Origin: an uncultured delta proteobacterium
Lineage (GTDB): Bacteria; Desulfobacterota; Desulfovibrionia; Desulfovibrionales; Desulfovibrionaceae
Direction of reading: 5' to 3'
DNA: 64,000 nt
Assembly: GCA_903843965.1 (NCBI GenBank)
Contig: CAIMRY010000031.1
Location: forward strand, 1-64,000
In this document: one piece after another, positions 46,450 to 52,067 of the stretch
Numbering within the stretch: the stretch's first letter is position 1
How the letters are laid out: every line of letters begins with the position of its first letter
Made by a program: the position numbers and the translations under genes
Notes under the pieces: model-generated
Databases searched by the model: none
Told to the model about the DNA's origin: nothing
Seen by the model: the letters and a program-made list of their open reading frames with translations, nothing else

Positions 46450-46478
46450 GGGGGCCGGGCGACCGGTCCCCTTTTTTT
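46450..46478 (+). terminator. Intrinsic terminator of the leu operon
   Basis: A nine-bp stem (GGGG-G-CCGG with CCGG-T-CCCC, one G-U pair) capped by a GCGA tetraloop is followed by seven T residues. It ends at the convergent TIGR03943-like gene. Confidence 0.92.
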
Positions 46479-47311
46479 CACCAGGCAAAGGGCTCCTTTT
46501 CTCGGAACTCGAAGAGGAAGGGTATGTCGTTCAGGGTGATGGGCTCGGCCTTGTCCACCACCACGCGGAAGCCCGGATTGACCAGGAAGATGGAGGGGCC
46601 CTTGCCTTTGGGCACGGCGGCCAGCAGGGGCTTGTCCGCGCCCTTGGCCTTGAGCGGCGCAAGCTGGCCAAAGACTTCAACCCAGTCCCCGGCCTGGACT
46701 TCCCCGGATTGGACTTCGGGCATGCCGGAGGCCAGGAAGGCCAGCTCCAGGCTGTCCGCCAGGCAGCAGGTGACCGCGATGCGTTTGAGCAGCACATATC
46801 CGCGCCGGTCCAGCTCCGGGGTGCGGCCCACCTGCACGCGCATGGCGAAATGCCGCGGGTAGTCCGTGCGGCGCTTGTCGACCATGATGTAAAGCTCGGC
46901 CAAGTTGAGGCGCACGTATTCCACGTTGTCCACGGTCACGCGCAGGGGCGGCGGCACGTCAGGCTCGTCCGGGATCGGAGCGCTGAGCGTGAGCGCGCCG
47001 GGCGGCGGCGGGGCGGCGGCCTGTCGCCAGGCAAAGGCGGCCAGGCAGAGAAAGGCCAGAATCAGGGCCTGCCGGGTCAGCCGCGCGGCAGTGGCGCGGC
47101 CTGGCTCGGGCCGGAGCAGCAGGGCCAGACCGCAGACGGCCAGCAGCACGCCCGTGCCCAGGGTCAGGGGGCTGAACTTGGGGTTCAGAAAGCTCCAGTA
47201 GTGCCGGGAAAGGGCCAGGGCCGCCAGGAATCCGCCCAGGCAGAGCAGGCACAGGCCCTCAAGCCGGTCCTGAAGGGTCGCGCGGAAGGCGGCGCAGAAG
47301 GCGGCGCTCAT
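46478..47311 (-). CDS. TIGR03943/YcgQ-like permease partner protein
   Basis: A 277-residue protein with two or three N-terminal hydrophobic segments and a conserved soluble C-terminal part, with ITCCLADS-type cysteines (AVTCCLADSLELAF) and FGQLAPL. This fits the TIGR03943/DUF1980 family, whose members sit beside COG0701-type permeases. The role is unknown; a metal-handling accessory is likely from context. Its ATG overlaps the stop of the permease gene as ATGA, so the two are made together. Confidence 0.82.
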   Translation of the reverse strand: MSAAFCAAFRATLQDRLEGLCLLCLGGFLAALALSRHYWSFLNPKFSPLTLGTGVLLAVCGLALLLRPEPGRATAARLTRQALILAFLCLAAFAWRQAAAPPPPGALTLSAPIPDEPDVPPPLRVTVDNVEYVRLNLAELYIMVDKRRTDYPRHFAMRVQVGRTPELDRRGYVLLKRIAVTCCLADSLELAFLASGMPEVQSGEVQAGDWVEVFGQLAPLKAKGADKPLLAAVPKGKGPSIFLVNPGFRVVVDKAEPITLNDIPFLFEFREKEPFAW

Positions 47312-48285
47312 CGCACACCCCCGAAAAGCCCCAGGCTCATGGTCAGCACGTAGATGATGACCGCCGGGACCAGGGCCACGGCCAGGGCCACCCGGCGCTT
47401 GAACACCGTGAAGTAGGCGGGCAAAAGCTTCAGGTCCAGCATGGGGCCCAGGGCCAGGAAGGCCAACAGGGCCGGGCGCGGGAACATGCTCAGGGAGGCG
47501 GCCACAAAGGCGTCGGCCTCGGAGCAGATGCTGATGAGCACGGCCAGCAGCATCATCGAGGGCACGGCCAAATACAGGTTGCCGGACACAAGGCCCAGCA
47601 GCTCCTGCGGGAGAAAGGCCTTGAACACCCCGGCGGCGCAGGCCCCGACCAGGAGAAAGCGGCCCATGTCCAGGAACTCCCGGGCGGTGAGGCGCAGCAC
47701 GTCGAGCAGGCGTGCGCCTGGGGACGAACCCTGGCCGTGGTGGTCGTGGTGATTATGCCCGCAGCCGCAGCTGTCGCCGCAACTGTCGCCAGACGCTGCG
47801 AGGCTGCCGCAGCTCTGGGCAAAGGAGGGCGCAAGGTCCAGGGAGGGCCGCAGGAGGTCCGTCCCCTGGTTCTTGGCCAGGCTCCAGCCCATCAGCGCCG
47901 CCGGGACCATGACCAGGGCCGCGCGCCAGAGGACCATCCGCGCATCGCCCTGGAAGGCCACCCAGGTGGCCGCCAGGGACACGGGATTCACCACCGGGGC
48001 GGCCAGCATGAACGGAATGGCTGCCCCGGTGGGCACGCCCTTGCGCAACAGCCGCCGCGTCACGGGCACGATGCCGCACTCGCAGGTGGGCAGCAAAAGC
48101 CCGGCCGCGAGCCCGATGCAGATCTGCACGCCAAGCGGCCGCCGGCCGATGCGCGTCAGGACCTCGTCGCCCACGAACACGGCGAGGATGGACGAGAGCA
48201 GCGAGCCCAGGAACAGGAACGGCGCGGCCTCCACCACGATGGAGGTGACGATGGTGGCGAAGATTTGGAAGGTGCTTTGGTCCAT
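47308..48285 (-). CDS. COG0701/DUF318-type permease with His/Cys-rich loop
   Basis: A 325-residue membrane protein of the ArsP_1/DUF318 permease family with about eight helices. The family motif LLPTCECGIVPVTRRL is in the first half and ISICSEADAFVAASL in the second. The central cytoplasmic loop contains CGDSCGCGHNHHDHHG, a probable metal-binding stretch. The gene starts 39 bases from the nearest zinc-type operator and diverges from znuA, so it is probably repressed when zinc is plentiful and may move zinc or a zinc chelate. GAGGT precedes the ATG by ten bases. Direction and substrate are inference. Confidence 0.85.
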   Translation of the reverse strand: MDQSTFQIFATIVTSIVVEAAPFLFLGSLLSSILAVFVGDEVLTRIGRRPLGVQICIGLAAGLLLPTCECGIVPVTRRLLRKGVPTGAAIPFMLAAPVVNPVSLAATWVAFQGDARMVLWRAALVMVPAALMGWSLAKNQGTDLLRPSLDLAPSFAQSCGSLAASGDSCGDSCGCGHNHHDHHGQGSSPGARLLDVLRLTAREFLDMGRFLLVGACAAGVFKAFLPQELLGLVSGNLYLAVPSMMLLAVLISICSEADAFVAASLSMFPRPALLAFLALGPMLDLKLLPAYFTVFKRRVALAVALVPAVIIYVLTMSLGLFGGVR

Positions 48286-48323
48286 GTTTTTGTGTACCTC
48301 AAAGACGTGCCGTCTTGACAGGG

Positions 48324-48340
48324 GTGCAATTCAGTTGCAC
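48324..48340. promoter_or_regulatory. Zur-type operator 1
   Basis: The perfect dyad GTGCAA-TTCAG-TTGCAC lies between the divergent permease and znuA genes. Sequence and setting suggest a Fur-family zinc repressor site. Confidence 0.8.
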
Positions 48341-48345
48341 AGTGC

Positions 48346-48362
48346 GTGCAACTTGATTGCAC
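48346..48362. promoter_or_regulatory. Zur-type operator 2
   Basis: A second dyad with the same arms, GTGCAA-CTTGA-TTGCAC, has its centre 22 bases (about two helical turns) from that of operator 1. Both would face the same side of the DNA. It ends 34 bases before znuA. Confidence 0.8.
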
Positions 48363-48396
48363 ACGGCTGACTTAGCCGAAACATGGGGAGACCGCA

Positions 48397-49302
48397 ATGC
48401 GTAAACTGCTGCTGCTGGCGGTGTTCGTCATGATGCCCTGCTGGATGACCTGCTGGACAACGCTGGCCACCACAGCCCTGGCCGGACCGCTCCAGGTGGC
48501 CGTGGGCGTGGCCCCGGTGGAGTATTTCGCCAAGAGGATCGGCGGACAGCTCATCCAGACAACGGTGCTGGTGCCTGCCGGGGCCGACGCCCACACCTAC
48601 GAGCCCAAGCCTTCACAGATGCGCGCCCTGTCCGGGTCGACGATGTACCTGTCCGTAGGCCTGGAGTTTGAGCAGGCCTGGGAGCCGCGCCTGAAGGCCG
48701 CCAACCGGGCGCTCTTTTTTGTGCGCCTGGAGCAGGGCCTTGCGCTCATGCCCATGCCTGAGGGCCATGACGACCACCACCGGGGCGGCGCAAAGGTCGG
48801 CCACGAGGTCGAGATGGACCCGCACATCTGGGTCTCTCCCTCGAATGTGCGGCATATGGCCGCGCACATCGCCGAGGTCCTGGCCAAGGCCGACCCGGCC
48901 CACGCCAAGGCCTACGCCGCCAACCTGGAGACGTTCGTGAAGGACATCGACGCCGTGGACGCCGACCTGCGCGCCGCCTTTGCCGGAATCCCGGCGGACA
49001 GACGCGTGTTCCTGGTGTTCCACCCGGCCTGGGGTTACCTGGCCCGGGACTACGGCTTGACCCAGACGGCCATCGAGTTCGAGGGCAAGGAGCCTTCGCC
49101 CAGGCGGCTGGGGGCCGTGATCGCCCAGGCCAAGGCCAGGGGCGTCAAGGTCATCTTCGTGCAGCCGCAGATGTCCAGGCGTACGGCGGAGAGCATCGCC
49201 CAGGCCCTGGGGGCGAAGGTGCTGGTGGTCGACCCGCTGGCGGGCGACTGGGCCGCAAATCTGCGCGCGGTGGCTGGAGCCTTCCGCGCTGCGCTGCGCT
49301 AG
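48397..49302 (+). CDS. znuA: Zinc ABC transporter substrate-binding protein
   Basis: A 301-residue periplasmic zinc-binding protein of the ZnuA (TroA) family. It has a signal peptide (residues 1-29), then VAVGVAPVEYFAKRIGG, the metal ligand region DAHTYEPKPSQ, a His-rich loop EGHDDHHRG, MDPHIWVSPSN and FVFHPAWGY-like VFHPAWGYLARDYG with the last ligands. GGGGAG lies six bases before ATG. No znuB or znuC is in the window, so it either serves a remote ABC transporter or hands zinc to the divergent permease. Confidence 0.93.
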   Translation: MRKLLLLAVFVMMPCWMTCWTTLATTALAGPLQVAVGVAPVEYFAKRIGGQLIQTTVLVPAGADAHTYEPKPSQMRALSGSTMYLSVGLEFEQAWEPRLKAANRALFFVRLEQGLALMPMPEGHDDHHRGGAKVGHEVEMDPHIWVSPSNVRHMAAHIAEVLAKADPAHAKAYAANLETFVKDIDAVDADLRAAFAGIPADRRVFLVFHPAWGYLARDYGLTQTAIEFEGKEPSPRRLGAVIAQAKARGVKVIFVQPQMSRRTAESIAQALGAKVLVVDPLAGDWAANLRAVAGAFRAALR

Positions 49303-49309
49303 GAGCAAT

Positions 49310-49726
49310 GTGGACCCGCAGGAACGTCTCAAGCAGTGCGGCCTGGCCGCCACGCCGAACCGGCTGTGCGTGCTGCGGGCCCTGGACGGCGCGAGCCGTC
49401 CGCAGACCCCGCAGGAGCTGCTGGCCGTGCTGGCCGGGCTGGGCGCACGCATGAACCGCGTGACCCTGTACCGCATCCTGGAGCTCTTGGTGGAGCGCGG
49501 GGTTGCGGCCCGGCACAACGCGGGCGAGCGCGCCTTCCGCTACTGCCTTGGCCGGGGCGCGCACGGGCACTCGCACTTCCACTGCACCCGCTGCGGGGCG
49601 ACCCAGTGCCTGGAGCCCAGGCTGCTGGAGCCGGGCCTCTCGCGCCTGCTCTCCGGCCTGCCCATGCAGGTGGAGCTGGCCGGGATCACGCTCGGCGGAA
49701 TCTGTGAGGGCTGTCAGCATAGCTAA
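49310..49726 (+). CDS. zur: Fur-family zinc uptake regulator
   Basis: A 138-residue Fur-family repressor with a winged helix (QTPQELLAVLAGLG...NRVTLYRILELL) and a dimerisation domain with HFHCTRCGATQCLE and CEGC, which form the structural zinc site. HGHSHFH supplies further ligands. Location beside znuA and two zinc-type dyads makes Zur the best call rather than Fur or PerR. The GTG start at 49310 has AGGAG upstream, eight bases after znuA, so it is probably autoregulated. Confidence 0.9.
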   Translation: MDPQERLKQCGLAATPNRLCVLRALDGASRPQTPQELLAVLAGLGARMNRVTLYRILELLVERGVAARHNAGERAFRYCLGRGAHGHSHFHCTRCGATQCLEPRLLEPGLSRLLSGLPMQVELAGITLGGICEGCQHS

Positions 49727-49813: not shown

Positions 49814-50935
49814 CTAGTTGCCCATGGCCTCCTGCGGCGTTTGGACCGAAGCGACCAGGGAGCTGAATGCCGGACGTGATTCCTTGAACTCTTTTTGGGT
49901 TTTGCAGGTCAGCACCAGCAGCAGGACTGTCTGGTCGGATGCATCCAAAAAGGCGAGCATTTCGTGACGTGTATTGCTGGAGACTATGGCAAACGGTGAG
50001 TCTGTCTGCATCAGCGTCGTATACTTGATGGTTTTTGCCAGGACTGCATGCGCGCTGTTCGTCAGACCCTTCTTGACCCGCTGTTCCTTGTAGTCCGCGA
50101 CATTCTGCTCGAAGCTCTCGGATTCGCTTGCGACAACCGTCTTGAAATCCCTGCCGTCCTTGAACAACGCCCGGACATAGATGTTTGGCGTTGGCCCGCG
50201 CCAGGCCCCGCCCTGCGGGTACAGCGCGAGCTGCACCCCATCCTCCAGTCCGGCCGTGACATCGGCCTGCCAGCCTTCAGGAACCTGGAACAGGTAGCTC
50301 TCCGTGGCGATCTTCAAGACCGCCTTGCCATGCGGCTCCAGCGACGCACTGGGAATGGGACGGCTGTAGCCCTTGGGCGCAAGCTCCTCGGCGATGATCT
50401 GGCAGGGGCGGTCAGGCAGGGCGAACAGGCCTTTCGCGAAATCGCAGGTCGCCTTCACCTGGCCTTTTGTGTCCCAATAGGACCATTTGCCGATCTTCTT
50501 TCCGCGCAAGGTCAGGCCCGTGGCTTTCCTGGACCCCGAGGGGTAGTAGAGGACGTAGATGTTTCCTGTCGGCTTGTACGCCACTTCGGTCGTGAGCGAG
50601 CCCGACTCGTCCCAATACTTCCATAATCCGAGCTTCTTGCCGGATTTGAAGCTGCCACGCGAGTACGGTTTCCCGTTTTCATGCCAGGCGGACCACTCGC
50701 CCTCAGCCGCGCCGTTGTTGTAGAATTCCTTGGCCCCAAGACTCCCGCTTTCGTACCAGCGCCACACTGAGCCGTGGTAGAGGTCGTTTTTCGGGTTCAC
50801 GCAGGCGCGAATGAAAGCGTTGTTCTGCCTGGGGCCGGGGTTGGTCGCCCCTTCCAGGCAGCGGAAATCGTCGGCATGAACAGCGGCGGGCAGGGCAAGA
50901 AGCAGAATCAGGATCAGGAGGATATGCCTCTTCAT
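49814..50935 (-). CDS. Secreted MORN/YwqK-type repeat protein
   Basis: A 373-residue protein with a clean signal peptide (MKRHILLILILLLALPAAVHA). Residues about 50-175 are four to five MORN-like repeats (GSVWRWYESGSLGAKEFYNN, GEWSAWHENGKPYSRGSFKS, GLWKYWDESGSL, GKWSYWDTKGQV), as in the YwqK family. Residues 210-360 form a separate mixed domain without a recognisable signature. It is probably periplasmic or outer-membrane associated. GAGGG precedes the ATG closely. The tautomerase gene ends 38 bases upstream on the same strand. Confidence 0.75.
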   Translation of the reverse strand: MKRHILLILILLLALPAAVHADDFRCLEGATNPGPRQNNAFIRACVNPKNDLYHGSVWRWYESGSLGAKEFYNNGAAEGEWSAWHENGKPYSRGSFKSGKKLGLWKYWDESGSLTTEVAYKPTGNIYVLYYPSGSRKATGLTLRGKKIGKWSYWDTKGQVKATCDFAKGLFALPDRPCQIIAEELAPKGYSRPIPSASLEPHGKAVLKIATESYLFQVPEGWQADVTAGLEDGVQLALYPQGGAWRGPTPNIYVRALFKDGRDFKTVVASESESFEQNVADYKEQRVKKGLTNSAHAVLAKTIKYTTLMQTDSPFAIVSSNTRHEMLAFLDASDQTVLLLVLTCKTQKEFKESRPAFSSLVASVQTPQEAMGN

Positions 50936-51386: not shown

Positions 51387-52067
51387 TTAACTCGCAACTG
51401 AGCGGCTTGGTTCGTTCTTGGCTTTGCGTGTCCGCTTGAAGCGTATGACGCCAAGCAGGCCGCTGCCTAGAAGCCATACCGCGCCTGGAATGGGCGTCGG
51501 AGCCGTCCGTGAGATAGCCACGATATAGTCGTCAAAGTTTTCGCCTATCCCGTCTGCTTTCATCATGACAATGGCGGTGCCCGCGCTCAAGGTCAGCCCG
51601 TTGTCGAGATGATAGGCCTTGGTCAACTCAAGGATTTGATACTTAGGGCTGATCACAAACTGGTGTTGCGTGGAGTCATAATCGATAACCGGCACCCAAT
51701 TGTATTTTCCCAAGTAGAACCCACCCATTACGCCAGGCTTAAACATCACTCTGCCGTACTCTTGTGATAATCTTTGGTTTGTAAAGGTGTTGTTTGGAGA
51801 ATATACATTATTCCATTCAAATTTAAAAGTAACAGTGCGGTCGGAGTTGAATCCAAGGGGAGTGATATACGTTTCGTGCACCCCATTGGTTGGATTGTCA
51901 TTAGCTGGATCGCCAGAAAAGGCCTTGTACGACATGCTGCTCAGAAAGCTTTCGTATGTCGTGTAGCCATTAGGGAAGAAACTTGCCGCTTGGGAGTCTT
52001 GCGTGGAGGCCGTCGCGAACAGACAGGTCAGGACCAGGGAAATGAGTAATGTCTTGATTGTGCTCAC
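51387..52067 (-). CDS. Exported protein with PEP-CTERM/VPLPA-like sorting signal
   Basis: A 226-residue protein with an N-terminal signal peptide (ISLVLTCLFATAS) and a C-terminal tail of the exosortase type: TPIPGAVWLLGSGLLGVIRF, then a basic cluster RTRKAK. The middle has no family that I recognise. It should be exported and processed by an exosortase, but none is in the window. Its DNA is clearly richer in A and T than its neighbours, which suggests transfer. The GTG start has AAGGAG six bases upstream. Confidence 0.85.
   Translation of the reverse strand: MSTIKTLLISLVLTCLFATASTQDSQAASFFPNGYTTYESFLSSMSYKAFSGDPANDNPTNGVHETYITPLGFNSDRTVTFKFEWNNVYSPNNTFTNQRLSQEYGRVMFKPGVMGGFYLGKYNWVPVIDYDSTQHQFVISPKYQILELTKAYHLDNGLTLSAGTAIVMMKADGIGENFDDYIVAISRTAPTPIPGAVWLLGSGLLGVIRFKRTRKAKNEPSRSVAS

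Follow-up and report, generated by a model that had tools for sequence, protein, structure and literature searches.

The znuA locus of the window (the whole 64,000-nucleotide stretch of DNA analysed here) is very probably a compact Zur divergon, in which ZnuA feeds a ZnuCB pair encoded in trans and a two-gene permease module is an independent, parallel member of the same regulon (Table 1). The initial annotation had reported two perfect GTGCAA-N5-TTGCAC dyads, 22 bp from centre to centre, between a permease with a TIGR03943-like partner on one side and znuA-zur on the other. Both dyads were found as described, and gene calls and profile matches confirmed the genes that flank them. The permease and znuA start divergently with a 111-bp gap between them that contains both dyads, the first 4 bp of the partner gene overlap the end of the permease gene, and znuA and zur are spaced by 7 bp. 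The genome assembly consists of 46 contigs (3.56 Mb); no plasmid copy was found.

Table 1. Features of the znuA-zur divergon in window coordinates.
Feature	Coordinates	Strand	Remark
Partner subunit, TIGR03943/DUF1980-like	46478-47311	-	below both model cut-offs
Permease, COG0701/ArsP_1	47308-48285	-	ArsP_1 163.9 bits (cut-off 32.3)
TTGACA, -35-like hexamer for znuA	48315-48320	+	kept in 9/9 compared operators
Zur-type operator dyad 1, GTGCAATTCAGTTGCAC	48324-48340	no strand	perfect GTGCAA-N5-TTGCAC
Zur-type operator dyad 2, GTGCAACTTGATTGCAC	48346-48362	no strand	perfect GTGCAA-N5-TTGCAC
znuA, zinc substrate-binding protein	48397-49302	+	PF01297 243.5 bits
zur, Fur-family regulator	49310-49726	+	PF01475 43.4 bits (cut-off 23.1)

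From base composition, chance alone would give ∼0.002 perfect sites of this kind in 64 kb and ∼0.1 in the whole genome. In a genome-wide search for further copies with up to one mismatch allowed, these two were the only ones found. Extra regulon members were looked for among 32 one-mismatch sites other than the two operator dyads; of the 13 inspected, none lies at an obvious zinc gene, and the most promising, near secD, seems accidental. Alignment of 35 sites with TGCAA-N5-TTGCA gave the consensus RTGCAACNNNGTTGCAY. Across 52 genomes the exact box TGCAACN3GTTGCA was counted 47 times, vs. 4 times for a reversed control. Of the 47 copies, 41 precede one of three genes by no more than 400 bp: 24 lie upstream of znuA, 13 of znuA with the divergent permease, 3 of the permease alone and 1 of znuC alone. 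Judged by its sequence, the dyad is a Zur-type box, and a well-supported one for the Desulfovibrionaceae. We found no paper describing this Desulfovibrionaceae box in the open-access literature, and priority is not claimed.

The operator has the same layout whether the permease pair is present or absent. In 9/9 compared operators two dyads lie 22–24 bp apart and a TTGAC hexamer stands 10–11 nt before dyad 1; the operator thus belongs in the first place to znuA. Dyad 1 would fill the presumed -35/-10 spacer of znuA, a geometry suggestive of repression; a generic sigma-70 scan detected no full promoter. An arrangement of one dyad per gene, the second being gained with the pair, was rejected because genus mates without the pair also have two dyads. 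A TAGCyGAAAC block was observed between dyad 2 and znuA (∼48370-48383) and at the same place in four other loci (L034, L031, L105, and L106). This block is conserved in the genus operators with the permease pair and absent from the pair-less genus mates, and may belong either to the promoter of the permease or to the leader of znuA.

The initial annotation had also noted the lack of an ABC partner for ZnuA. This holds for the window, where no ABC permease or ATPase was found near znuA-zur, but not for the genome. A PF00950 search of the genome identified exactly one ABC-3 permease over the cut-off, on contig 23 (G000:C23:33270-34037), with an ATPase directly upstream whose Walker and signature motifs are intact. 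Both frames, znuC and znuB, are intact, which rules out a genome without ZnuBC and corrects the idea that ZnuA is without an ABC partner here. The only PF01297 protein of the genome is the window ZnuA, no binding protein was apparent in the list of open reading frames around the contig 23 znuCB, and no ZIP protein scored over the cut-off in the genome. Because one PF01297 protein and one ABC-3 permease are present, the window ZnuA would, by elimination, serve ZnuCB in trans.

The genome resembles ZnuABC/AztABC systems in having all three components (binding protein, ABC-3 permease and ATPase), each as one intact gene. It differs from them in that znuA lies on contig 31 and znuCB on contig 23, and in that the high NCBIfam matches of ZnuA, ZnuC and ZnuB to the zinc AztC, AztA and AztB models are all below the equivalog cut-offs. 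The best solved relative of ZnuA is 1pq4, the zinc-uptake binding protein of the cyanobacterium Synechocystis, with matching His motifs. Since the ABC partners of ZnuA are intact elsewhere in the genome, the locus represents a variation on known zinc regulons and not a new importer.

No Zur box, even a weak one, was recognisable before znuC in this genome, so that its znuCB is not visibly co-regulated. An intact znuBC elsewhere with its own copy of the dyad had been named at the outset as a case against the proposed layout; the intact genes are there, whereas the dyad is missing from them in this genome. The orphan znuC does carry the box in two relatives (G061 and G016). In two other genomes (G060 and G028; loci L086 and L087), whose genus has the divergon as well, a further, distant PF01297 binding protein is encoded before the orthologous znuCB, and the partner of ZnuA is for this reason less clear there.

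We compared a model of the permease with solved structures. The AF2 model (pLDDT 87.6) matched 9a59 (Z 12.4) and the arsenite carrier ArsB (10tp, Z 11.9) over 269–285 residues with rmsd of 4.5–5.3, and matched TRAP membrane subunits at lower Z. Foldseek E-values were not significant, and for a helical protein the near full-length resemblance to IT-superfamily elevator carriers, ArsB included, is suggestive only. Neither the permease profile nor that of the partner matched any PDB sequence. Among 51 permease sequences from several phyla, the CxC (TCECG) and CSxAD motifs are invariant; the His/Cys-rich loop is variable in sequence and disordered in the model.

The partner has three predicted TM helices and a C-terminal OB-like beta domain, in which an invariant CCxAD motif lies. 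It scored 51.8 bits against TIGR03943 (cut-off 88.8) and 24.7 bits against DUF1980_C (cut-off 25.9). Similarity over most of the model together with the CCxAD motif points to a divergent TIGR03943 relative. The same permease-then-partner domains are found in the TIGR03943/DUF1980 two-gene modules of Bacilli and other phyla, from which the window partner differs by its divergence, its scores below the cut-offs and its position next to znuA-zur. A partner-like ORF was detected in 88 of 95 loci; of the seven that have none, five have no permease either (88/90 for permease-bearing loci). The G061 partner (L031:8029-9105) matches in two pieces ∼360 bases apart in one open frame, as if an insertion separated its TM part from the beta domain. 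The pair is probably a secondary, elevator-type, two-subunit metal carrier with a cysteine-bearing OB-like domain.

Two roles had been suggested for this pair in the initial annotation, either an alternative importer to which ZnuA delivers zinc or a transporter acting in parallel in the same regulon. The former would be a TRAP-like, non-ABC system with ZnuA as the receptor, the permease as the large subunit and the partner as the small subunit. The tight divergent linkage and the operator common to both arms are consistent with it, as are the likeness of the permease model to elevator carriers that include the lower-Z TRAP subunits and the three TM helices and sub-threshold TctB match of the partner. 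We consider it very unlikely, however, in view of the intact ZnuCB and of the independent occurrence of the pair and znuA across genomes. znuA and znuCB are in different places in all six genus members examined (our genome and five mates), and three of the six (ours, G061, and G110) contain the pair. The other three (G029, G083, and G098) are without it, yet keep ZnuCB and znuA-zur, and in their tandem operator the 22-bp spacing of the dyads and the position of TTGAC are unchanged. Judged by the identity of ZnuA and ZnuB, these three are closer to our genome than the pair-bearing mates are. In them leuC-leuD-leuB is followed by a hairpin resembling a terminator, the two dyads, znuA, zur and gatA, and the pair is thus cleanly absent between leuB and znuA.

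The converse arrangement was also observed. In genus g38 the pair is remote from znuA, and the permease has a box of its own in 5/5 genomes inspected (L222, L223, L224, L228, and L229). In several genera the pair stands beside a complete znuABC, and a complete znuABC-zur is found opposite it in the divergon of G032, G037, G043, and G090. The initial annotation had proposed a survey of such pairs in genomes lacking znuBC; an ABC-3 permease was present in 42 of the 44 pair-bearing family genomes, and the two without it (G027 and G082) are 84 and 87 percent complete. Pair and ABC-3 presence were not significantly associated (Fisher test, p 0.21), and we therefore claim no dependence between them. 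Across phyla, znuB was found within 6 kb of the permease in 14 of 80 pair loci at loose thresholds. Since nearly all pair-bearing genomes have an ABC-3 permease and complete znuABC sets occur beside the pair, the pair accompanies ZnuABC and is not its replacement. Feeding of the pair by ZnuA is thus left unsupported, whereas a role in parallel is borne out by the separate dyad of the unlinked pair and by its frequent coexistence with complete znuABC. Less probable still is a binding-protein-dependent secondary zinc importer in which one ZnuA would serve both ATP-driven and ion-gradient-driven partners.

Another explanation is that the pair, encoded beside the importer, exports zinc or copper, and that it may serve as a safety valve which zinc-loaded Zur switches on. 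The nearest NCBIfam model of the window permease is the SO_0444 Cu/Zn efflux model (NF033936), of the same COG0701/ArsP_1 superfamily. The SO_0444 gene is needed under Zn and Cu stress, and Cu/Zn efflux was assigned to it from Shewanella fitness data (PMC3219624). Positive control of the B. anthracis ArsP_1 operon was inferred by its authors from the position of the box (PMC6336718). The window permease reached only 81 bits, however, far below the family cut-off of 300, whereas a COG0701 paralogue on contig 15 (G000:C15:80650-81477; L085:5160-6053) passes it with 354.8 bits as a member. The efflux role therefore seems to be taken by the paralogue. The operator layout at znuA also looks like repression, and we regard export by the pair as unlikely. 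Gene linkage cannot decide between import and export. Because the paralogue and not the window permease passes the efflux model, import or scavenging during starvation is favoured over export, with moderate confidence.

Somewhat more doubtful than export is the proposal that the pair handles another substrate, its place in the regulon reflecting the upkeep of membrane or cofactors during zinc starvation and not the transport of zinc. Exporters, of organoarsenicals among others, belong to COG0701, and the Pfam family bears the name ArsP_1. Against another substrate, a znu, Fur-family or COG0523 gene adjoins the pair in 33 of the 80 loci across phyla (at loose thresholds, with some weak Fur-family matches), and both subunits have invariant Cys and acidic motifs. 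The S. mutans homologue, described through its part in low-pH survival and biofilm, would fit such a role (PMC6336718).

The regulator matches Fur/Zur/Nur structures. It has two CxxC structural zinc pairs (HCTRC and CEGC) and a Cys at the YC/FC position, typical of the Zur sensing site, that is conserved in 18/18 relatives; by analogy with known Zur structures, these cysteines would act as metal ligands. The protein scored 31.7 bits against the NCBIfam Zur equivalog PRK11639 (cut-off 167), and its box and its neighbours are what point to a Zur function. For a Zur divergon with the pair as a parallel member, we propose that zinc-loaded Zur binds the two tandem 17-bp dyads over the znuA core promoter and would shut off znuA-zur and probably also the divergent permease pair. 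At low zinc, both arms would be expressed. ZnuA would then hand zinc to the AztAB-like ZnuCB encoded in trans on contig 23, and the permease with its TIGR03943-like partner would form a separate metal transport module of the same regulon, not the membrane partner of ZnuA. The distribution of the box fits a very small zinc regulon, to which znuA(BC), zur and the pair belong independently of one another.

The locus resembles the Zur regulon of B. anthracis. There, znuA and znuBC are separated, Zur regulates its own gene, and an operon with an ArsP_1 (COG0701) permease has two Zur boxes and is bound by Zur in EMSA; split znu genes were noted by the same authors in several other bacteria (PMC6336718). 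Our layout is a new instance, both the split of znuA from znuBC and a Zur-bound ArsP_1 permease having been published for B. anthracis. The gene zur lies with znuBC in B. anthracis and with znuA here, and the box sequences differ. The B. anthracis permease gene BAS1632, next in number to yciC (BAS1633), has its own boxes, unlike the pair described here, for which one divergent operator is common with znuA-zur. Literature searches linking Zur regulons with COG0701, COG3689 or TIGR03943, or Zur with Desulfovibrio, found nothing direct. The COG0701-TIGR03943 module recurs in this minimal zinc regulon, also as a free-standing target, and is therefore directly testable as a zinc-starvation transporter.

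Two genes beyond zur were also observed. Directly 3′ of zur and convergent with it, a secreted-looking protein with MORN_2 repeats is encoded at 49814-50935 (-). Near the end of the ORF at 51387-52067 (-), a PTPIPGAVWLLGSGLLGVIRFKRTRK stretch resembles a PEP/VPxP-CTERM sorting signal.
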